Positions 44,586-54,939 of a stretch of 64,000 nucleotides of DNA are shown here, in pieces. Below the pieces are notes generated by a model. It ran no database searches. It was not told the DNA's origin and worked only from the letters and a program-made list of their open reading frames with translations. Positions within the stretch are counted from its first letter, which is position 1. Each line of letters begins with the position of its first letter. Both the position numbers and the translations under genes were made by a program. Source of the stretch: Thalassospira profundimaris (lineage in GTDB: Bacteria; Pseudomonadota; Alphaproteobacteria; Rhodospirillales; Thalassospiraceae); contig NZ_JPWF01000013.1 of NCBI RefSeq assembly GCF_003326675.1, forward strand, positions 1 through 64,000, in the 5' to 3' direction.

Positions 44586-45809
44586 ATGCTGAGATTGGTA
44601 GCGTCGATTGGTTTCATCGTGTGGTCTTTCACAGCAGTCGCTGCCCCGAGCAGTTCTGCCTTGCTTGATCAAATCCTTCTGGAAGCACTGAACGGGTCAC
44701 TTGCCGCGAATGAACAACGCGTGGCGCAAGAAGCGCAAACACGCGATGAGCGTAAAGCCGAAGGCGACAGGCTTGATATCGCGCGAGAAGACGAAAAGCT
44801 TGCACGCAAAAACCTGGCCGACATAGCCAAAGCCGAACGTGACAGGCTTCGGGCTGAGAAAGAAGAAGCAGAGCGTCGCGAAGAGATGCTTGCCCAAGCC
44901 GAGCGAGAAGCGAAACGGGAAGCTGCTGCTGCGCGCCGTGCCGCCGAAAATGCCGCAGCCCAAGCAAGTGCAAACAGCATCATTATGGAAGCGATCACCC
45001 GCAATGCAAATGCCATTGCGTCTGCGCAGATACAGGGGCAGGCAGCCGTAAATTCGGCCTATGCAACGGTCGATGCAATCAATGCGCAACGCCGCGCCGA
45101 TGCACAGGCCGCAGCGGTTGCCAATCAAAGCCGGGCAGCAGCCGAAGCCGCGGACAGACAAGCCGAGGCAGCACGTCGTCAATTGGATGCGGCCCTTAAT
45201 CAATCGCGAAATATTACGCAATCGGGCGGCCAAACTGGTTCGACGTCAACCGGGTTGCCGGGCATTTCCGGGGGGCTTCCGTCTGTCAAAGTCCCCTCTG
45301 GCTCGCAGGGAACGACGCGTTCGTCAGAGAACAGGACGATTGTTATTGCGCTGGGCGGGGGCACGGCCAGTACGCCATTGGCACCAACGGCGAAACAAAC
45401 ATTGGGCGATCAGGGGAGCCAAGGTCTTTCCTTGGCATCGGCACCTGTTAGTCGCGAAGAAGCGTTGGCGTATTGTTATCACAAAAAAGAAAAGGATCCG
45501 GGGTTTGGCGCAGATGCCTGGTATTGTGACGGGCCAACACAGAACACGCTGACCAATAATCCATTGCCCGAGGCGCTTGGATATGTCGGTTGTCGTGATG
45601 CGGATTACGAGGGGCGCAGTGTTGCGTTTAACAAAGGGCTGATTTTCTTCTGCGAGAAAGCAATTGCGCCCTATGACAGCAATATATCGGAACGCTACAA
45701 GCTGCCGGGAAACATCCTTGCCCGGCGCAATACGTATCTTTGTAAAGATACGTCGACGACATGCACGCGGGAAAACGCAATCAATGTGACACCGGGTCGA
45801 GGGTCTTAA
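44586..45809 (+). CDS. Exported coiled-coil protein of unknown function
   Basis: The 407-aa protein starts with a signal peptide (MLRLVASIGFIVWSFTAVAA). A long charged heptad-rich coiled coil at about 35-125 is rich in Glu/Arg/Ala. An Ala/Gln-rich stretch, a Gly/Ser/Thr linker near 215-250, and a C-terminal domain of about 130 residues with six or more Cys (YCYHKKEKDPG, YCDGPTQ, GCRDADYEG, FFCEKAI, YLCKDT, TCTREN) follow. The cysteine-rich end suggests disulfides in the periplasm or outside. I do not recognise a family. It begins a three-gene set of exported proteins. Confidence 0.75.
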   Translation: MLRLVASIGFIVWSFTAVAAPSSSALLDQILLEALNGSLAANEQRVAQEAQTRDERKAEGDRLDIAREDEKLARKNLADIAKAERDRLRAEKEEAERREEMLAQAEREAKREAAAARRAAENAAAQASANSIIMEAITRNANAIASAQIQGQAAVNSAYATVDAINAQRRADAQAAAVANQSRAAAEAADRQAEAARRQLDAALNQSRNITQSGGQTGSTSTGLPGISGGLPSVKVPSGSQGTTRSSENRTIVIALGGGTASTPLAPTAKQTLGDQGSQGLSLASAPVSREEALAYCYHKKEKDPGFGADAWYCDGPTQNTLTNNPLPEALGYVGCRDADYEGRSVAFNKGLIFFCEKAIAPYDSNISERYKLPGNILARRNTYLCKDTSTTCTRENAINVTPGRGS

Positions 45810-45810
45810 A

Positions 45811-47784
45811 ATGGTGTTGCATTTTACCCGCAGGCTCGTAATCGCGGCCTTGTTTCTTGTCGTCTCGGAACAAGTTGCTGTTGCACAGGTAAGTGACGAT
45901 TTCAAAGCACTTGCCCGTATCCTTGGTGATGCCGTGTTAAGGGCGGATGATCAGGAAACGCTTGCGCTGTCAGCACGGATCCGGGCGCTTGGTGAACCGG
46001 TTGGTGTCGAAATCGAGTTTGCCGAGGCCCAGGCATTGATGCGTATGCATCGGAACGAGGCCGCCGAAGATGCGATCAACCGATATCTTGCCAATGGCGG
46101 GAAATTGCAAAAACGTGCCAAGGCAATTCAGACAGAGCTAAATCGCCGTAAAAAGGCAATGTCGACAAGCTGGCGTCGCGATATTACTGCCCGCGGGACA
46201 CCGTTACTTTATCCCGACGGTAGCTACGTTGTTGCCCGGTGGACAAACGATGACCTTGCAGAGGCCAATATCGTGGTGAGCTTCCACGATGCCAATGGTG
46301 ATCAGCAATGGAGAACGGTATATGGCGGGGCGGTCGCCAACTATATGTCGGCATATATCGATGTCGATTATGGACGGATCGTCGTGGGGGGCCAGATGGT
46401 CAATGGTGGATGGCGTAACGAAAACCATTTGACGCGGGCATTGGCCTTTGAACTGGATCCGTTGGGGCGGGTTCGGTGGCAGTTTAATCCGCAGAATGAA
46501 GCGCTTCCGGGCGAGATCGCGTATTACGGAAATACCAGATATTTGGTTGCGGACGGCGTAGGCGGGTTCGTTATGGCCTTTAGTTTAGGGGGCGAGCGAT
46601 ATTTCATCGAGCGATATGCCGCCGACGGTAACCGACAATGGCGCCAGTTTTATCAGGGGAAATCCAAAAACGATAATCCCGATGTGGTCGGGCTTGCACG
46701 AGATGGGCTTGGAAATTTCTATGCGTTTTATGATCGCACAGCATGGGCGCCCCAAAAGATTTTGAAATTTGATAAGGGCGGACGCCTCGTTAAGGAACTG
46801 CGGGGCAGTCCGGTTAACGGGAAGACCTATGAATATAACGAGGGATACTTTTCGCCTGATAATCTCAGGCGGATTATCATGTCCGTCCAGGTGTCGGAAG
46901 ATGGCAGCAATGCTTATTTCCTGACGAAAAGATACCTGCCGGACAATAAGGGAATGGTCCACGAAGTTCATGCGGTTTCCTTGTCTTCAGGTCAGCCCTT
47001 GTGGTTAAGGTCCTTTGGCCTGATGCCGGTCGTGAACAGGAATTACAGAGAGTCTGTCGAGTTCGCGGTGGATGGAAAAGACATCGTTATTGCCGGTATT
47101 GAACAAGCGTCATCAGAGGGCAAGAAAACACTGTTCGTTCGCAAATACAGTGGTGCAAGCGGGACATTGTTGTGGGAGCGACGGGAGAACAGGGAAGAGG
47201 GGGCCTATGCCGTCGACAGGGTGCAGATTTTCCCCAGTGGCATGGCGCTGATTGTCACCGGTCCCGAAAAGAAAGAGATCATCCATCTTGCGGCCCTTGA
47301 GTTCGAAGGGCTTGATGATCCGCTTGCAGAGCCGCCGGCGGTTGCTTTCCTGCCTTATAGTGAAAACAGTGATGCACGTGCAGAGATACTATATCAGCGG
47401 GCCGTTGATGACGTCAGCAGCGCGGAGGCAGCTTTGCGTACATGCCGGGAAGGCAAGGTTTCCGAAAACGTGGTTGGTCGCATCCGCGAGGTCAGAGCGG
47501 ATTGGGGATTTGTGATCCTTGACCTTAATGCCGGGCGCGGTTTGAAATCGGATATGTCGGTGCGTTTGGCTGACGGAACATTGATTGGCCTGAAACCGGG
47601 TAAGGAAGTCAGTGCAAGTGCGGTTTCGGCATCCCCGATTTCGGCCCCAATCGAAAAATTGACGGCCGGAATGGATGTGGTTGCATCCGGGGATATTCCC
47701 GATGCTTTGTGTCCATCGGAACTGGCGGGGCTTGAACAGGCCCGCAAACATTTAACGGCAACCCCGCGTCCTGCAAGTCGCTAG
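45811..47784 (+). CDS. Exported protein with predicted beta-propeller region, unknown function
   Basis: The 657-aa product has an N-terminal signal peptide (HFTRRLVIAALFLVVSEQVAVA) and a helical, TPR-like segment to about residue 120. Repeated WD/PQQ-like strands follow, such as FHDANGDQQWRTVYGG, LDPLGRVRWQFNPQ and YAADGNRQWRQFYQG. The C-terminal domain of about 100 residues (VVGRIREVRADWGFVILDLNAGRGLKSDMSV) recalls small barrel domains of FlgT type. It starts one base after the upstream stop, so translation is coupled. It probably forms a periplasmic or surface complex with its neighbours; function unknown. Confidence 0.75.
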   Translation: MVLHFTRRLVIAALFLVVSEQVAVAQVSDDFKALARILGDAVLRADDQETLALSARIRALGEPVGVEIEFAEAQALMRMHRNEAAEDAINRYLANGGKLQKRAKAIQTELNRRKKAMSTSWRRDITARGTPLLYPDGSYVVARWTNDDLAEANIVVSFHDANGDQQWRTVYGGAVANYMSAYIDVDYGRIVVGGQMVNGGWRNENHLTRALAFELDPLGRVRWQFNPQNEALPGEIAYYGNTRYLVADGVGGFVMAFSLGGERYFIERYAADGNRQWRQFYQGKSKNDNPDVVGLARDGLGNFYAFYDRTAWAPQKILKFDKGGRLVKELRGSPVNGKTYEYNEGYFSPDNLRRIIMSVQVSEDGSNAYFLTKRYLPDNKGMVHEVHAVSLSSGQPLWLRSFGLMPVVNRNYRESVEFAVDGKDIVIAGIEQASSEGKKTLFVRKYSGASGTLLWERRENREEGAYAVDRVQIFPSGMALIVTGPEKKEIIHLAALEFEGLDDPLAEPPAVAFLPYSENSDARAEILYQRAVDDVSSAEAALRTCREGKVSENVVGRIREVRADWGFVILDLNAGRGLKSDMSVRLADGTLIGLKPGKEVSASAVSASPISAPIEKLTAGMDVVASGDIPDALCPSELAGLEQARKHLTATPRPASR

Positions 47785-47831
47785 GGGGCAAATTTGAATT
47801 ACATTTGTTCGGTTAAACAGGGGAAGAGCAC

Positions 47832-48263
47832 GTGACAAACTTCAAGAAGCTGGCAGGGGCGACAATGCTGCTAACCGGACTGGCCGGGTGCGAGTTCAAA
47901 ACAGCGGGCATTGATCAGACCGCGGTTGAGTTTATGCCGCCCGATGTGGCGATTGCCTATGTCAAGGACACCCTGAAGCCGTGGCCGGCGGGATATGGCT
48001 ATGATCCGTGTGTTATTACCGATGACGGGGTGATGATGGACGGGGATTTCCATGCCTTTGCAAATACCCGTCTGATTATTGAACGGGACACCATTCGGGA
48101 TCGCTACGATATCCGTGTGCTTGAAAACACCTGGGTCATTCCGGATTTCTGTTCCTATTACAAAGGGGATGACGGAACAGGTTCCCTGGCAGCCGAAGCC
48201 GAGAAAATTGATCGCATCGGCACGGCCTTTACTGCGCTTGGATCAAACGTGCCGTCGCATTGA
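47832..48263 (+). CDS. Small lipoprotein of unknown function
   Basis: The 143-aa product begins with a lipoprotein signal (MTNFKKLAGATMLLTGLAGC, lipobox LAGC with Cys20) using a GTG start behind GGGAAGAG. The mature part has two further Cys (DPCVIT and DFCSYY). Sequences such as FMPPDVAIAYVKDTLKPWP and NTRLIIERDTIRDRYDIRV are otherwise unfamiliar. It follows the beta-propeller gene by 47 nt and likely anchors the same exported system to a membrane. Confidence 0.7.
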   Translation: MTNFKKLAGATMLLTGLAGCEFKTAGIDQTAVEFMPPDVAIAYVKDTLKPWPAGYGYDPCVITDDGVMMDGDFHAFANTRLIIERDTIRDRYDIRVLENTWVIPDFCSYYKGDDGTGSLAAEAEKIDRIGTAFTALGSNVPSH

Positions 48264-48520: not shown

Positions 48521-49444
48521 ATGCGCGCTCTTGTTCTTTCTGCTGTTGCAGCTGTGGCATTTGCCTTTGCTGGCAGTGCGGCCCAGGCCGAACGCCTGAC
48601 CGACAAGCCGTTGGTTGATGCCAACTGGGTTGAAGCGAATCTTGATAACCCGTCTTTGGTTGTTGTGGACATCCGTTCGCTGACCAAAGAGGGCAGCCCC
48701 TATGATGCAGGTCACATTCCGGGTTCGGTTTATGCGCCCTATGGCAAGTTCGGCTGGCGTGCGAAGGTCGACAATGTTGTCGGCATGTTGCCGCCGCTTG
48801 ATGTGATTTCGGGCCGTATCGGTTCGCTTGGTATCGATAATGACAAACAGGTTGTTATTGTCCCGGCCGGTGAAAACAGCTCCGACTTTGGTGGCGCGAC
48901 CCGTGTTTACTGGACCTTCAAGGTTCTGGGTCATGACGCGGTTACCATTCTTGATGGTGGTCAGCGCGCATGGCTTGCCGCGGGCAAAGCGGTTTCGACC
49001 GATGCGGTTGCACCGGGTGCTGTGGCCTTTAACGCCGATTTCCGTCCGGAACTTCTGGCGACTGCCGATGACGTTGCCAAGGCACGTGATGCGGGTGTCG
49101 CGCTGATTGATGCGCGTCCGGTATCGCAGTTCAAGGGCGAAACCAAAAGCGGTGTGGTTGCCCGTGCCGGTGCCGTTCCGGGTGCGAAAAACATCGCACA
49201 GTCGGAATTCTATAGCGATCAGAACGGTGCGTTTGTCGCATCTGACGTGATTGAATCGCTGGTGGCCGATGCAGGTGTCGCGACTGACGCCAAGGAAATC
49301 ACCTATTGCAATACCGGTCACTGGGCATCGGTTGCGTGGTTTGGTCTGTCTGAAGTGATGGGCAACAAAAACACTGCAATGTATGATGGCTCCATGACCG
49401 AATGGGCTGCTGATCCGAGCCGCGAGATGATCATTCCGGAATAA
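48521..49444 (+). CDS. Periplasmic thiosulfate sulfurtransferase (tandem rhodanese)
   Basis: The 307-aa protein has a clear signal peptide (MRALVLSAVAAVAFAFAGSAAQA) and two rhodanese domains. The first (VVVDIRSLTKEGSPYDAGHIPGSVYAPY) lacks a catalytic Cys. The second has the active Cys263 in TYCNTGHWASVAWF. Transfer of sulfane sulfur from thiosulfate or another donor to a thiol acceptor in the periplasm is predicted. It lies upstream of a YeeE/YedE permease and a Cys-rich repeat protein, a likely acceptor or partner. The ATG just before the signal peptide is chosen over earlier in-frame Met codons. Confidence 0.87.
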   Translation: MRALVLSAVAAVAFAFAGSAAQAERLTDKPLVDANWVEANLDNPSLVVVDIRSLTKEGSPYDAGHIPGSVYAPYGKFGWRAKVDNVVGMLPPLDVISGRIGSLGIDNDKQVVIVPAGENSSDFGGATRVYWTFKVLGHDAVTILDGGQRAWLAAGKAVSTDAVAPGAVAFNADFRPELLATADDVAKARDAGVALIDARPVSQFKGETKSGVVARAGAVPGAKNIAQSEFYSDQNGAFVASDVIESLVADAGVATDAKEITYCNTGHWASVAWFGLSEVMGNKNTAMYDGSMTEWAADPSREMIIPE

Positions 49445-49551: not shown

Positions 49552-50763
49552 ATGTCAGAAACGACCCTTAAAGCTCGCCCGGAAGCCCCGGGATTTGACT
49601 TTGACAAAGGCCCGGCCGCGATGACGGCAGTGCTGTTTGTGATTGTCGGTATTGCCATTGCCCAAGCAGTTGATCTTCATCAGGCGGTTCTTTACGGCCT
49701 TGGCGGATTGCTGGGTATTTCCCTTTATCATGCGTCATTCGGTTTTACCGGTGGCTGGCGCCGGTTCTCGGTCGAGAAGCGCGGGCGTGCAATGCGTGCC
49801 CAGCTTTTGATGATCGGGGTGGCGGCCGCGGCCTTTATCCCGATGCTGGCGCTTGGCAATCCGTTGGGTGATCCGATTGTCGGGGCGGTCGCACCGGTCG
49901 GGACATCGGTTCTGGTCGGGGCCTTTATGTTTGGCCTTGGCATGCAGCTTGGCGGTGGTTGTGGTTCGGGAACGCTGTTTACGGTTGGTGGCGGCAGTTC
50001 GCGGATGTTGCTGACCCTTGTGTTCTTTATCATCGGGGCAGTGATCGGGACGGCGCATTTGCCAATGTGGCTTGAACTTCCGGCCTTGCCGCCGATGAGT
50101 TTGGGGCGCGAGCTTGGCGTTGGTGGCGGACTTGCCGTGACCTTTGGCGGTCTGGCACTTGTCGCATTGATCACGGTGATTGTCGAAAAGCGTGCCCACG
50201 GGTCGCTTGAAGCAACGCCCAAGGCACCGCGTGCCGGTTTGGCGCGCCTGTTCCATGGTCCCTGGCCGCTGGTCTGGACCGGGTTGCTTTTAGCCGGCCT
50301 TAACATTGCGACCCTTTTGATTGCCGGTCATCCGTGGTCGATTACGTTCGGCTTTGGCCTGTGGGGTGCGAAGATCGCCCAGGTCATCGGCATTCCGGTC
50401 GAAACCTGGGAATTCTGGAACTGGGCGGGGCCTGCCAAGGCGCTTGGCAATTCGGTTCTTGAAGACAATACCTCGGTGATGAATTTCGGCATCGTGATCG
50501 GTGCGGCCTTTGCCGCCGCCCTTGCCGGTAAATTCGCGCCGAAGGTTTCGGTGCCGATGGCGTCGCTTCTGGCGGCCGCGGTTGGCGGCATCCTGATGGG
50601 CTATGGCGCGCGTCTGGCATTTGGTTGCAATATCGGTGCATTCTTTAGCGGGATCGCATCGGGCAGCGTGCATGGCTGGTTGTGGTTTGTGCTGGCCTTT
50701 GCAGGCAGCTGGGTCGGTATCGCCCTGCGTCCGGCATTTGGATTGGATGGATTCCGGAAATGA
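49552..50763 (+). CDS. YeeE/YedE-family (TsuA-like) sulfur-compound permease
   Basis: The 403-aa membrane protein has about nine or ten helices and two family signatures with reactive cysteines. These are GMQLGGGCGSGTLF (Cys near 137) and ARLAFGCNIGAFFSGIASGSVHGW (Cys near 359). TsuA/YeeE proteins conduct thiosulfate through Cys relay sites. Beside a periplasmic rhodanese it should import thiosulfate or another sulfur species. It ends in an ATGA overlap with the next gene. Confidence 0.88.
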   Translation: MSETTLKARPEAPGFDFDKGPAAMTAVLFVIVGIAIAQAVDLHQAVLYGLGGLLGISLYHASFGFTGGWRRFSVEKRGRAMRAQLLMIGVAAAAFIPMLALGNPLGDPIVGAVAPVGTSVLVGAFMFGLGMQLGGGCGSGTLFTVGGGSSRMLLTLVFFIIGAVIGTAHLPMWLELPALPPMSLGRELGVGGGLAVTFGGLALVALITVIVEKRAHGSLEATPKAPRAGLARLFHGPWPLVWTGLLLAGLNIATLLIAGHPWSITFGFGLWGAKIAQVIGIPVETWEFWNWAGPAKALGNSVLEDNTSVMNFGIVIGAAFAAALAGKFAPKVSVPMASLLAAAVGGILMGYGARLAFGCNIGAFFSGIASGSVHGWLWFVLAFAGSWVGIALRPAFGLDGFRK

Positions 50764-51371
50764 GCGAGAAAAACACCCTTCTGTTCGGTGCGGTCTTTTT
50801 GGCAGCGACCGGCGCGGTCGCCCTTGATCACTACACCCACACGGCAAACATTCCGGCCATCGCCAACCCGGCCCCGGCAAAACGTCCGGCAGCAGGCGCA
50901 AATCCCTGTGCGGGGAATCCGTGTGCGGCAAATCCGTGCGGCGCGAACCCGTGTGGTGCCAATCCTTGTGGCGCCAATCCTTGCGGTGCGGGCTATAATC
51001 CGTGTGCGGCCAATCCATGTGCCGCCAATCCATGTGGGGCGGGATATAATCCTTGTGCTGCAAACCCTTGTGCGGCGAGTCCGTGTGGGGCGGGGTATAA
51101 CCCGTGCGCTGCATCGCCGTGTTCCGCGAACCCGTGTGCGGCCTATAACCCCTGTGGTGCGGCAAGTCCCTGTGCGGCACGTTTGAATCCGCGCAGTCTT
51201 GGCAATCCCTGTGCTGCGGCCAATCCGTGCGCGGCAAGCCCGTGCGGTGCCTATAACCCGTGCGCGGCATCGCCCTGTGCCCCGGCAGCGGCAAGCAACC
51301 CGTGTGCGGCAGCAAATCCGTGTGCTGCCTATAACCCTTGTGGTGCGGCGAACCCTTGTTCTGCCTATTAA
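50760..51371 (+). CDS. Membrane-anchored Cys-rich NPC-repeat protein (hypothetical)
   Basis: The 203-aa protein has an N-terminal hydrophobic signal/anchor (about residues 7-22). About 150 residues of short repeats follow, of the type NPCAANPCGA, some spaced by GAGYNPC or SPC. I count 26 cysteines, each after Asn-Pro or Ser-Pro. The same NPC triplet is written with many different codons (AATCCCTGT, AATCCGTGC, AACCCGTGT, AATCCATGT, AATCCTTGC), so the peptide, not the DNA repeat, appears conserved. Start overlaps the permease stop (ATGA), tying it to the sulfur module. Sulfane-sulfur carrier, metal-binding or structural disulfide roles are all possible; function is unknown. Confidence 0.85.
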   Translation: MSEKNTLLFGAVFLAATGAVALDHYTHTANIPAIANPAPAKRPAAGANPCAGNPCAANPCGANPCGANPCGANPCGAGYNPCAANPCAANPCGAGYNPCAANPCAASPCGAGYNPCAASPCSANPCAAYNPCGAASPCAARLNPRSLGNPCAAANPCAASPCGAYNPCAASPCAPAAASNPCAAANPCAAYNPCGAANPCSAY

Positions 51372-51419: not shown

Positions 51420-51492
51420 GAAATAAGAACAAAACGTGATTCTTCACTTGCATGAATTACGATAAAAGTTATTCTTGTTTTGTTCTTATTTC
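51420..51492. promoter_or_regulatory. 16-bp perfect inverted repeat with 41-bp spacer ahead of the methylase
   Basis: GAAATAAGAACAAAAC at 51420-51435 and GTTTTGTTCTTATTTC at 51477-51492 are exact reverse complements. The right arm ends 3 nt before the AAGGAGGT ribosome-binding site of the methylase gene. The element probably holds the promoter and operator of the restriction-modification genes. Confidence 0.7.
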
Positions 51493-51508
51493 TGTAAGGA
51501 GGTGCGCA

Positions 51509-52792
51509 ATGGAAGCCGGTTTTCACGCACTACGTACAGCAAACGGCTGGTCTCTTGATGACGCGGCAGCATGGTTTGGTGTATCAAGACAGACGGTCGA
51601 GCAATGGGATTCAGGGAAAAGCATTCCTGAGAGAGGATGCCTGCAAGACCTTGAAAGCACCTTGATATACAAAAAGAATTTTAACCGGGACCAGTCGATG
51701 AGCGATTTCACCTTTATTGATCTGTTTGCGGGAATCGGCGGAGTTCGGCGCGGATTCGAAGCGGCGGGCGGGAAATGTGTTTTTACCAGCGAGTGGGACA
51801 CATATGCGCAGAAAACGTATCGGGAGAACTTCCCGAATGACAATCACCAGATCGCAGGGGATATAACGCAGATCAAGGCCGAAGAAATTCCGGCACATGA
51901 TGTTCTGCTTGCAGGGTTTCCGTGTCAGCCGTTCTCGATTGCCGGTGTATCGAAGAAAAATGCTCTTGGGCGCGCTCACGGTTTCATGGATAAGGCACAA
52001 GGCACGCTTTTCTTTGATGTTCTTCGCATTCTCAAGCACCACAAGCCGGCAGCTTTCATGCTTGAGAATGTAAAGAACCTGAAAAGCCACAACAAGGGTG
52101 ACACGTTCAATACTATTATGGGCGCATTGCGCGACGAGCTTGGTTATCACGTTCAGGCCCGTGTCGTTGACGGGAAAGGCTATGTACCTCAGCACCGTGA
52201 ACGAATTTTTATTGTCGGCTTTCGAAAAGATGTTGGCTTCGATTTCGACGCCTGCAAGTTTGCAGATGCTGCTTCCGGGCCGGTCATAGGTACAATATTG
52301 CATGCCCCCGACGAAGAGCCGGAGCATCAGTTTACATTGCAGCCTGAAGATGCGCAGGCCAATGTTTCAAGTGTTGTGAACCCGAAATATACGTTGTCGG
52401 ACAAGCTCTGGAAGTATCTGTTTGATTATGCTGCGAAGCATAAGGCGAAAGGAAACGGGTTTGGCTTCGGTCTTTGCGGGCCGGACGACAAGGCGAGAAC
52501 GCTTTCTGCGCGCTATTACAAGGATGGCAGTGAAATTCTGATCGATCAGGGTGAAGGACGGAATCCGCGCCGTTTGACGCCGCGTGAATGTGCCCGCCTG
52601 ATGGGGTTTGACGATGATACTTTTACGATGAAAATTCCTGTCTCTGATACCCGTGCATACAAACAGTTCGGAAATTCTGTCGTCGTGCCGGTGATCAAGG
52701 AAATAGCACGGCAGATGAAGCCTTATGTGTTGAAGAGCATGAGGGCGGAGGGTGCAGTTGTCGTGAACGAAGAGAGCGTCGCAGCGGAGTAA
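51509..52792 (+). CDS. DNA (cytosine-5) methyltransferase with N-terminal HTH
   Basis: The 427-aa protein has an N-terminal helix-turn-helix (about 5-45: ALRTANGWSLDDAAAWFGVSRQTVEQWDSG) and then m5C methylase motifs. These are motif I FIDLFAGIGG (69-78), motif IV with catalytic Cys139 (FPCQPFS), motif VI MLENVKNL, motif VIII QHRERIFIVGFR and motif X QFGNSVVVPV. Enzymes such as M.EcoRII and M.SsoII carry similar N-terminal domains that repress their own promoter. AAGGAGGT lies 5 nt before the ATG; an in-frame ATG at 51698 would give the catalytic part alone. CCWGG is the likely target by association with the EcoRII-like nuclease. Confidence 0.9.
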   Translation: MEAGFHALRTANGWSLDDAAAWFGVSRQTVEQWDSGKSIPERGCLQDLESTLIYKKNFNRDQSMSDFTFIDLFAGIGGVRRGFEAAGGKCVFTSEWDTYAQKTYRENFPNDNHQIAGDITQIKAEEIPAHDVLLAGFPCQPFSIAGVSKKNALGRAHGFMDKAQGTLFFDVLRILKHHKPAAFMLENVKNLKSHNKGDTFNTIMGALRDELGYHVQARVVDGKGYVPQHRERIFIVGFRKDVGFDFDACKFADAASGPVIGTILHAPDEEPEHQFTLQPEDAQANVSSVVNPKYTLSDKLWKYLFDYAAKHKAKGNGFGFGLCGPDDKARTLSARYYKDGSEILIDQGEGRNPRRLTPRECARLMGFDDDTFTMKIPVSDTRAYKQFGNSVVVPVIKEIARQMKPYVLKSMRAEGAVVVNEESVAAE

Positions 52793-52796
52793 TTGT

Positions 52797-53255
52797 TTGG
52801 CTGATATTGTCTCGCCTGAACAACGCAGCAAGATGATGTCAAAAATTCGCGCGACGGATACAAGGCCAGAAATCTTGGTCCGTAAGGCGTTGTACGCCCG
52901 GGGTTTTCGCTATCGCCTTCATGACAGGCAGTTGCCGGGTAAGCCTGATCTTGTTCTTCCCAAATATAATGCTGTCATATTCGTACATGGATGCTTTTGG
53001 CATGGCCACGATTGTCACCTGTTCAGGTGGCCTAAGTCTCGTGAGGAATTCTGGAGGGAAAAGCTGAGCAGAAACAGGCTCCGCGATAGCCAGGCTTTAG
53101 TTCAATTACATGATAAGCAGATAAGAACGTTAATTGTCTGGGAATGCTCGTTAAAAGGGAAAGGTCGGCTTGATTTCTCTAGTCTAGTGAATATGGTGTC
53201 GGATTGGCTTAAAGGTAATAGCAACCATAACGAGATTCGGGGGAGAAGCCGATGA
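52797..53255 (+). CDS. vsr: Very short patch repair endonuclease
   Basis: The 152-aa protein matches Vsr: VSPEQRSKMMSKIRATDTRPEILVRKALYARGFRYRL, LPGKPDLVLPKYNAVIFVHGCFWHGHDC and the C-terminal RTLIVWECSLKG. It nicks T:G mismatches arising from deamination of m5C, protecting the genome from methylase-linked mutation. The TTG start 4 nt after the methylase stop is preferred, with GGAG upstream; the 3' end overlaps the nuclease gene by 4 nt. Confidence 0.92.
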   Translation: MADIVSPEQRSKMMSKIRATDTRPEILVRKALYARGFRYRLHDRQLPGKPDLVLPKYNAVIFVHGCFWHGHDCHLFRWPKSREEFWREKLSRNRLRDSQALVQLHDKQIRTLIVWECSLKGKGRLDFSSLVNMVSDWLKGNSNHNEIRGRSR

Positions 53256-54628
53256 ACTTGCAAGGAGAGCTCAACTTCGATGGTTTGAGTAGTGATACAG
53301 AACTTCTGTTGAGGCTATTTGAGACATCGGATCGCGTGCTTGTAAAAAAGCTATCCAACAATGACCGTGATTGGGCGCGTTTTCCAAACAAGCATCAGGC
53401 TGGGGTCTACATTCCGCAAGAGCAACGGGAGGGAGGCTTTTTCCCGGAACTCTCAGTGAAGGAGAGGTTGGATCCTGAAGCAAAACCAATTCGAGAAAGC
53501 TTCTTCTCTACGGTTTGGCCGCAGAATGGCAACGAAGAGAAGCGAAGCCGACTGGTTCATTATACCAGCAAGGGGCCCGAAACTCACTTAACTGGACTTC
53601 CGAAGTCACTATTTTGCGACTTGTTGCCTGCGTCTTTTTTCTTGATGGCAAAGCAACAGAGAGCGGGAGGGACAGTCTTCATATGTATGACAATTGATTC
53701 TACGTCTGAAGAAGTCGCCTATTTGGAAGATCTGTTAAGCCTCGAACCTGATTTCATCGTTGGTGAATTTGATACAGGAGTTGTCAAGCAGCAGGAGCAA
53801 GAGGGAATTCTGGGTTTTGCTGATCAAATTGTAGCTGCTTGGCAAAGAGGAGAAATAGGACTTTTCGCAGCTACAAGCGCGAAAATGCCGACAACACTTG
53901 AGCTTGCTCACATTGCAAGATCCAAGTTCATGGATATCCATAGGCGCAAAGATATTAATCCATTTGAAATGGACTGTCCCGGCGACGCATTACGCGAGAT
54001 CAGCAGGAGTATTGAGTGGGATCTATTTCGAGAGTATCAGCGCCAAGAGCGCGCAGTTCAGCTGGTGAGGATAGTGTTTGGGGATGAGCCAAAGGCCTTT
54101 AATGCCATTGAAATCATGCGGCGCCTTACCGATGCATTGGCTGAAATTGACAAATTGATGTTGTCAGCCAGCCAGCAACGAAAGTCGCGGGCAGGATACT
54201 CTTACGAGCATCATATTGAAGCGATGTTGGGTGCAGCTTTAATTCCGTTCGAAAAGCAAGTCGTTCTGGAGAATAAAAAGCGTCCAGATTTTGTTCTTCC
54301 ATCACTTTCTTACGCTAAGAGGGTTAAAATTGAGAATCAGCAGGGGCTTATTCTTAGTGCAAAAACAACCTTGCGTGAGCGATGGAAGCAGGTAGAGCGG
54401 GAAAAAGGAGATCGTGATTTATACCTGACAACCGTGGATGAGAACATTCCCGCAAGCACGATTGAAGATATGGCGAGAATTAATGTTCAGCTTGTAATTC
54501 CCGAAAGTTTGCTGTCTGAGCGCAAGGTGGCGGGGCTGAAGAATGAGTACGCGGGGCATCCAAATGTGCTCACTTTCAAGGAATTCTGTGAGAATGTGGT
54601 GAGGCCCCGGATGGGGTTTTGGAAATAG
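53252..54628 (+). CDS. EcoRII-like type II restriction endonuclease
   Basis: The 458-aa protein has an N-terminal effector-type DNA-binding domain with a KKLSNNDRDW...HQAGVYIP pattern like the EcoRII B3-like domain. The C-terminal PD-(D/E)XK domain carries AGYSYEHHIEAMLGAAL, KRPDFVLPS and ILSAKTTLRERWKQ, typical of the EcoRII catalytic family. It is a little longer than EcoRII (about 404 aa). Such enzymes need two or more sites, binding an extra site allosterically. Base composition is visibly lower in GC than the surroundings, consistent with transfer. CCWGG specificity is inference. Confidence 0.85.
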   Translation: MNLQGELNFDGLSSDTELLLRLFETSDRVLVKKLSNNDRDWARFPNKHQAGVYIPQEQREGGFFPELSVKERLDPEAKPIRESFFSTVWPQNGNEEKRSRLVHYTSKGPETHLTGLPKSLFCDLLPASFFLMAKQQRAGGTVFICMTIDSTSEEVAYLEDLLSLEPDFIVGEFDTGVVKQQEQEGILGFADQIVAAWQRGEIGLFAATSAKMPTTLELAHIARSKFMDIHRRKDINPFEMDCPGDALREISRSIEWDLFREYQRQERAVQLVRIVFGDEPKAFNAIEIMRRLTDALAEIDKLMLSASQQRKSRAGYSYEHHIEAMLGAALIPFEKQVVLENKKRPDFVLPSLSYAKRVKIENQQGLILSAKTTLRERWKQVEREKGDRDLYLTTVDENIPASTIEDMARINVQLVIPESLLSERKVAGLKNEYAGHPNVLTFKEFCENVVRPRMGFWK

Positions 54629-54939
54629 TAGCTTTTCTTGGCTGTGACGAAGGCCCGGCGCGCAAATCTGCCGGGTCTGTTTGCGTAAAACGCGGGGCTG
54701 TCACAAATATGGCGTTTGACAAGATGGGCAAACTCTGCGCATGGTGTCGCAGAAATTTGATCGCTCCAGAAGCGTAGAGGGGATGTATATCCCCCACTGT
54801 TGAGTGGTTGACCTAAGAACGCATTGAAGTGTCCAGCTACGCGGGTGCTTCCAGAACTGCAAGGCGCAGACCTGATTACTATATTTCACCGGGCGTTGTC
54901 CCAGCTGTCTGCAGCCTCTAATTTACGAGTTACCCTTAT
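54629..54939. other. 311-nt gap between the restriction gene and the helicase
   Basis: No gene is seen. CCCGGC and GCCGGG form a 6-bp stem near 54655-54676 that may end the restriction transcript. TTGACA at 54716-54721 is a possible -35 element with only a weak -10 partner. The region must include the helicase promoter and leader. Confidence 0.4.

Follow-up and report, generated by a model that had tools for sequence, protein, structure and literature searches.

What does a protein made up largely of Asn-Pro-Cys (NPC) units do directly behind a YeeE-family permease, with its start codon overlapping the permease's stop? The question is raised by a 64,000-nucleotide stretch of Thalassospira profundimaris DNA (contig NZ_JPWF01000013.1, positions 1 to 64,000; hereafter the window), in which an open reading frame (ORF) at 50760-51371 on the forward strand encodes the repeat protein, here called P0001. 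We suggest, with a probability that we put a little below one half (roughly 0.48), that the product of this gene is a disordered array of thiols, anchored in the membrane on its periplasmic side, that would serve as a many-site sulfur carrier.

The NPC-repeat protein and its operon

A 26-cysteine protein of NPC and Ser-Pro-Cys (SPC) units had been reported at 50760-51371 by an earlier, sequence-only reading, and the ORF is found there with the same number of cysteines. The translation has 203 residues and 26 cysteines, every one of them preceded by proline, in 21 NPC and five SPC units, together with one Asn-Pro-Arg (NPR). The AlphaFold model of P0001 is confident only for an N-terminal helix at residues 3-28, beyond which the chain is disordered. 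Because this predicted helix is followed by a short linker and then by the disordered run of 26 Pro-Cys units, P0001 is likely to be a membrane-anchored periplasmic array, with helix, disorder and periplasmic side all being predictions; the membrane tether proposed in the sequence-only reading is plausible on the same grounds, and the helix may possibly be cleaved as a signal peptide. No family in Pfam or NCBIfam matched the protein up to an expect value (E) of 1.

The ATG of the P0001 gene (50760-50762) shares bases with the TGA stop codon of the permease gene (50761-50763), giving a 4-nucleotide ATGA overlap on the forward strand (50760-50763) from which we infer translational coupling of yeeE and the NPC gene. 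The permease gene (49552-50763, forward strand) encodes a YeeE/YedE-family protein (Sulf_transp, PF04143; E 2.3e-74, 251.2 bits against a cut-off of 27) with cysteines in the stretches GGGCGSGTLF and FGCNIGAFF. The gene of an exported two-domain rhodanese (48521-49444, forward strand, start codon picked by eye) ends 107 bp before it; its product matches PF00581 in two stretches and has a signal-peptide-like N-terminus and, in the second domain, a CNTGHW motif that we take to be the active-site loop. Both the overlap with the permease stop and the position downstream of a periplasmic rhodanese had been claimed from the sequence and are borne out, as is the YeeE half of the call "TsuA/YeeE permease"; the TsuA half was too precise, and TsuA was rejected as an assignment because the permease scores 70.8 bits against a cut-off of 400 with one of the NCBIfam TsuA models and 49.5 bits against 645 with the other.

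The NPC gene was found in all 28 congeneric Thalassospira genomes searched, directly behind YeeE; in one of them (G008) the YeeE-NPC junction coincides with a contig break, and an intact NPC copy lies on the next contig. With the genome of the window included, the ORF is intact in 29 of 29 genomes and encodes proteins of 125-233 residues with 14-31 cysteines. The ATGA start context is likewise present in 29 of 29, as judged by a script that tested only for ATG followed by A, with the YeeE frame read by eye from the codons. Inside the P0001 gene there is a 51-bp tandem repeat (3.2-3.9 copies, 78-81% match), and because the orthologues differ so widely in length and cysteine number, the array does lengthen and shorten by duplication; tandem periods of 15, 30 and 51 bp leave a trace of this at 50898-51142 (forward strand). 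The earlier argument from synonymous codon variety holds in part: the 21 NPC units are spelled by ten different 9-mers, yet tandem duplication has also been at work.

Selection on the peptide is supported by comparisons between close relatives, 29 of the 406 Thalassospira pairs having passed the limits on coverage and identity. In these pairs the proline codons of the units have a proportion of nonsynonymous differences (pN) of 0.001 and of synonymous differences (pS) of 0.58, and the cysteine codons have a pN of 0.005 and differ synonymously about once per synonymous site; proline and cysteine codons are held, in other words, where synonymous change is saturated or nearly so. The Asn/Ser position of the units has a pN of 0.093, and the ratio of nonsynonymous to synonymous rates (dN/dS) is 0.08 in the N-terminus and 0.16 in the spacers. 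The pN figures understate change, because the aligner favors Cys-Cys matches, and an unaligned count within P0001's own array, 26 Pro-Cys against one NPR, points in the same direction as they do. Residues M1, N5, L8, G10, A16, D23 and H24 of the N-terminus are invariant in 21 aligned proteins. The proposal that selection acts on the peptide gains from both lines of comparison: changes at proline and cysteine are almost only synonymous across the repeats, and frameshifts or stops, looked for in the close relatives, are absent from all 29 copies.

Partners and fusions of NPC arrays in other bacteria

As a DNA pattern, NPCAAxNPC had matches in 29 of the 289 genomes searched in the class, which span many families, and because the same pattern read backwards matched none, its occurrence is more than chance. 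DUF6969, which the sequence-only reading could not have seen in the window, is the strongest partner of the wider NPC family: it is present in 62 of the 289 genomes and in 28 of the 29 with the pattern (Fisher p 1.3e-20, without phylogenetic correction, as for the p values that follow), in 26 of 27 when Thalassospira is left out (p 2.7e-19) and in 28 of 28 congeners. YeeE, counted as PF04143 at E 1e-20, occurs in 66 of the 289 genomes and in 18 of the 29 (p 1.7e-6), or 16 of 27 with the genus left out (p 1.3e-5). Judged by these sequences, P0001 is one member of a broader class of exported NPC arrays that has no name.

Scanning named genomes yielded at least 119 NPC-pattern stretches, and the counts given from here on are among the 119 listed, 111 of which hold an ORF with at least three NPC; those that do not (L149, L169, L199, L204, L217, L259, L261 and L262) were kept in the denominator. 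Neighboring families were called by local profiles, and the 8-kb blocks used clip many contexts; the seeds of the profiles were named by Pfam scans, except for "cupredoxin-like", a name that we give to a protein with no match in Pfam. The hosts come from records named as Alpha-, Beta- and Gammaproteobacteria, Rokubacteria, Nitrospinota and others. DUF6969 is present in 49 stretches and YeeE in 22 (two from Thalassospira, three of the Devosia type described below, 17 others), followed by a sigma-70-type factor in 18 (ECF-like by our interpretation), a VTT/pyridine-nucleotide reductase in 17, an FGE-like protein in 13, DUF302 in 12, DUF3179 in 12, a DsbD/CcdA-like protein in ten and a rhodanese in nine. 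Of the 19 arrays with at least 2.5 kb visible on both sides, 11 have DUF6969 within that distance. A secreted cupredoxin-like family was also seen beside NPC arrays and YeeE (L132 1773-2363, without a Pfam hit; L151 5880-6365; and others).

The presence of YeeE in 22 stretches supports a link between NPC arrays and sulfur at the level of sequence, and fusions of the arrays to SoxA/TsdA-like cytochromes support it better. In 34 stretches a short c-type cytochrome, all of one family, sits in the same ORF as the array, and in 31 of these the fused domain is near full length with CxxCH; the fusion counts, including those for P460 below, were made with NPC-free seeds. Four NPC proteins scanned singly (L150, L162, L254 and L153) pass the cut-off of 27 for PF21342 (SoxA/TsdA) with 28.8-40 bits. 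The best match in the PDB to a profile of 22 such domains is 1h31, with E 2.8e-6 over the entire chain and 3e-4 over the stretch, which is listed there as a "diheme cytochrome c" and which we take to be SoxA; CxxCH and an invariant cysteine of the fused domains align with it in the profile, the latter with a cysteine that presumably serves as a haem ligand in 1h31. Cytochrome P460 was called in 29 stretches, in the same ORF as the array in 28 and as a separate gene in one; of four scanned against PF16694 (cut-off 27), L064 (31.2) and L260 (27.2) lie above it and L066 (22.8) and L063 (24.4) below. Single ORFs join NPC units to thioredoxin in a cyanobacterium (L258 2140-2784), to a BLH-phosphatase-like domain in Pseudidiomarina (L215 3107-3883) and to a DUF3179 domain in L237 (6939-7998).

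The order rhodanese-YeeE-NPC-DUF6969 occurs in Devosia limi, in Devosia sp. A8/3-2 and in a Hyphomicrobiales metagenome-assembled genome, in all three with an NPC protein whose N-terminus resembles that of P0001 and with a DsbD/CcdA-like gene divergent from the set; in the A8/3-2 record rhodanese and YeeE are split, and the DUF6969 of the Devosia loci was called by local profile only. Another genome (G274) has YeeE, NPC and DUF6969 at a contig end, and a P0001-like N-terminus is common to its NPC protein and that of Devosia limi. In G038, a relative of the same order, rhodanese-YeeE is divergent from NPC-DUF6969.

The genome of the window has a second NPC locus on another contig (L062 7812-10713), where the gene of a small NPC protein with a signal-peptide-like start is divergent from an exported FGE-like gene followed by DUF6969, with a cytochrome c gene too. 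The FGE-like gene (L062 8433-9302) matches PF03781 with 140.3 bits (cut-off 23.3), and the equivalog models PvdO, EgtB, SenA and OvoA all stay below their cut-offs on its product. Among FGE-like neighbors, CG[VI]C follows KGGSWDD in 43 of 46 rows (46 of 50 matches, some of which are one gene in overlapping loci), the exceptions being L256, which lacks the motif, L213, which is masked there, and L093, for which another part is shown. We take the CGxC of this subfamily to lie close to the copper-cysteine site of FGE, but its spacing is different. The FGE-like protein is optional, since a search of two Devosia genomes turned up no homologue, and as an obligatory partner of P0001-type proteins it was rejected on that ground.

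The DUF6969 protein of this second locus matches PF22308 with 283.7 bits (cut-off 27), and no signal peptide was seen in it. Invariant residues among 61 members include H47, D52, D55, H65, H67, E77, H80, H82 and H114. Its structure model has a predicted local distance difference test (pLDDT) score of 96.3; Foldseek gave no match in the PDB at E 0.001 and the best VIA Z was 3.5, which does not make the fold new.

Proposed sulfur carriage and its rivals

Rhodaneses move sulfane sulfur, and in SoxA/TsdA-type haem domains sulfur species are joined together and electrons released. From the sequences we infer that NPC arrays carry sulfur: thiosulfate or sulfane sulfur would be loaded onto array cysteines as persulfide or S-thiosulfonate, at the P0001 locus probably via the periplasmic rhodanese; in relatives, a fused haem domain of the SoxA/TsdA or P460 type would assist and take the electrons. 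The flexible tether would keep the loaded thiols close to YeeE and so raise their local concentration, and YeeE would import the array-borne sulfur into the cytoplasm. DUF6969, joined where present by the exported FGE-like protein with its CGxC, may prepare or maintain the arrays, although this is a guess. YeeE-like proteins are described as sulfur importers with three essential conserved cysteines (PMC11582611). We extend this picture tentatively, and with distinctly less confidence than the proposal for P0001 itself, to NPC arrays in general: they may form a class of their own among sulfur carriers outside the cytoplasm, so far undescribed, consisting of disordered chains that bear tens of Pro-Cys sites and are matured by DUF6969 (in some hosts with the FGE-like protein), loaded by attached or neighboring haem domains of the SoxA/TsdA or P460 type and emptied via rhodanese and YeeE, P0001 being the membrane-tethered form that would feed its permease directly.

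Several observations weigh against sulfur carriage, a proposal built on sequence and predicted structure. Because rhodanese and YeeE are near only nine and 22 of the 119 listed stretches, the wider NPC family is not tied to either, so that the co-occurrence with sulfur genes that the sequence-only reading proposed to test holds for YeeE in a minority of stretches and not as a general rule. YeeE is absent from 97 of the listed stretches, some of the 20 YeeE stretches outside the genus are partial, no YeeE turned up at E 1e-20 in 11 of the 29 genomes with the NPC pattern, and among arrays with at least 2.5 kb visible on both sides YeeE lies within 2.5 kb of only 6 of 19. No sulfur gene was recognized in the stretch read at the second locus of the genome, and in G074 rhodanese-YeeE is divergent from DUF6969 with no NPC gene between. 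P0001 has no haem domain in the Pfam scan (no PF21342). Three of the fused proteins (L150, L162 and L153) also reach the cut-off of CCP_MauG over the haem motif, and di-haem peroxidases are the next PDB matches of the profile (5.7e-5), over the haem motif only. The cupredoxin-like gene found in 12 listed stretches would fit copper as well.

A single origin of the NPC-linked YeeE proteins is not supported, and this too counts against the sulfur carrier: the YeeE tree gives nine label changes (shuffles average 18.5), with two very long branches (NPC-linked L250 on one) and with several Thalassospira near-copies that aid clustering. Its background was drawn from 40 stretches (24 usable YeeE, one duplicate dropped, 15 with no match under limits of E 1e-15 and 250 residues). 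By eye, 6 of the 8 unlinked YeeE proteins in a Rokubacteria/Beta/Alpha clade belong to genomes with the NPC pattern, against 1 of 9 in the neighboring unlinked clade.

The main rivals of a sulfur carrier are metal buffering and thiol redox buffering, and because 97 listed stretches are without YeeE both retain some weight. In the former, which we consider unlikely, the array would act like an unfolded metallothionein and bind Cu(I), Zn(II), Hg or Ag in the periplasm, and YeeE would be its neighbor because the two serve soft-metal or sulfur stress alike. The 26 cysteines of a disordered chain would suit this, as would the cupredoxin-like, sigma-70-type and VTT/pyridine-nucleotide reductase genes (12, 18 and 17 of the 119 listed) and the CGxC of the FGE-like neighbors, near the copper-cysteine site of FGE; but by crude motifs a metal-export gene (CPx ATPase) lies near the arrays in one of the 119 and a multicopper oxidase in none, fusion to SoxA/TsdA-like haem domains would be unexpected, and the operon of P0001 contains rhodanese and YeeE. 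Less probable again is a redox buffer or electron relay whose cysteines would switch between thiol and disulfide forms, trading electrons with c-type cytochromes and DsbD/CcdA-like proteins and carrying no sulfur. It would account for arrays in one ORF with P460 (28 listed), with SoxA/TsdA-like haem (34 listed) or, once, with thioredoxin, and for the DsbD/CcdA-like genes in ten listed stretches, including all three rhodanese-YeeE-NPC-DUF6969 loci, yet it leaves unexplained the YeeE and rhodanese of the P0001 operon and the YeeE of 29 of 29 Thalassospira and of the Devosia-type loci.

We give barely lower odds than to the redox buffer to the idea that NPC proteins are precursors akin to ribosomally synthesized and post-translationally modified peptides (RiPPs), in which cysteines modified by DUF6969 and/or the FGE-like enzyme would be the residues that act. 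The near-constant company of DUF6969 (present in 28 of the 29 genomes with the pattern and next to 11 of the 19 arrays with 2.5 kb visible on both sides, at no more than that distance), its invariant His/Asp/Glu set, the conserved CGxC of the FGE-like neighbors and weak, sub-threshold matches to CefA (L019 15.4, L075 12.3 and L222 16.1 bits) all lean this way, whereas P0001 has no CefA match even at E 10, the two Devosia genomes searched gave no FGE-like homologue, and the enzymatic role of DUF6969 is guessed from invariant residues alone. Membership of the CefA RiPP family itself (NF038108, cut-off 30 bits) was rejected on these scores. A structural envelope protein with cysteines cross-linked in a disulfide mesh is improbable: the hosts of NPC arrays are not known to form spores, and redox or sulfur chemistry is what the operon context and the haem fusions suggest. 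CdeC, for which such a mesh has been proposed, does have a 6-NPC repeat and redox-dependent self-assembly (PMC7677010), and its other motifs are absent from P0001. A functionless, near-neutral expansion of low-complexity sequence behind YeeE, which the 15-51 bp periodicity and the length range of 125-233 residues might suggest, was rejected as very improbable, since all 29 copies are intact, cysteine and proline codons are held near synonymous saturation and seven N-terminal residues are invariant in 21 proteins.

The flanks of the operon were also read. Upstream of the rhodanese, three consecutive proteins (window 44586-48263) have no Pfam family at E 0.001, and directly behind the NPC gene lies an EcoRII-type restriction-modification set (C5 methylase, Vsr and EcoRII-C; window 51452-54628). 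Among 13 congener loci compared, sequence like that from window position 54650 onward follows the NPC gene after ~25-160 bp in nine and after ~0.9 kb in three, with no match to it in the remaining one. A promoter and terminator scan gave counts close to those of shuffles, and a check for plasmid carriage gave no match.

Comparison with known systems

NPC arrays appear to be a new class, widespread in bacteria and apparently undescribed; P0001 scores above the cut-off of no curated family. In the open-access literature searched we found no paper on an NPC-array family, NPC repeats only in CdeC, and nothing on DUF6969. If P0001 and its relatives are sulfur carriers, many marine, groundwater and sediment bacteria would use a periplasmic sulfur or thiol carrier unnamed in the family libraries scanned, and a single short operon would allow a test of how sulfur gets to YeeE-type importers. 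Should the ligand prove to be a metal, the NPC family, its near-constant partner DUF6969 and the haem fusions would still together be a system for which that literature yielded no paper.

Metallothioneins and bufferin-type copper-binding peptides are Cys-rich like P0001, which differs in its NPC spacing and its rhodanese/YeeE context and in which Pfam at E 1 finds no known metal-binding family. CefA, with a cysteine at every fifth position, resembles P0001 in its regular cysteine spacing, and P0001 has no match to its model. CdeC, from the exosporium of Clostridioides difficile, is Cys-rich with an NPC repeat as P0001 is, but it is a spore protein with 6 NPC, and the motifs KKNKRR, HHH, CCRQGKGK and CNECC, taken from its description (PMC7677010), are all missing from the P0001 translation. 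The permease of the operon resembles the TsuA/YeeE and SoxT permeases (PMC11582611) as a PF04143 protein with cysteines in two conserved-looking stretches, but it falls below the NCBIfam cut-offs for TsuA.

The likeness that bears most directly on a sulfur carrier is to the Sox proteins. A domain like that of the SoxA/TsdA cytochromes (PF21342, in the four proteins scanned singly), with CxxCH and the aligned cysteine, is found in the NPC proteins of 34 of the 119 listed stretches, though not in P0001. SoxYZ has one cysteine, on the GGCGG arm of a folded protein; P0001 matches neither the SoxY nor the SoxZ family, its translation lacks the GGCGG arm, and its NPC relatives share an ORF with the SoxA/TsdA-like haem domain. 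Like SoxYZ of the Sox pathway (PMC5336275), P0001 is predicted to be periplasmic and would carry sulfur covalently on the cysteines of a flexible arm, but it would do so on many NPC units along a disordered chain.

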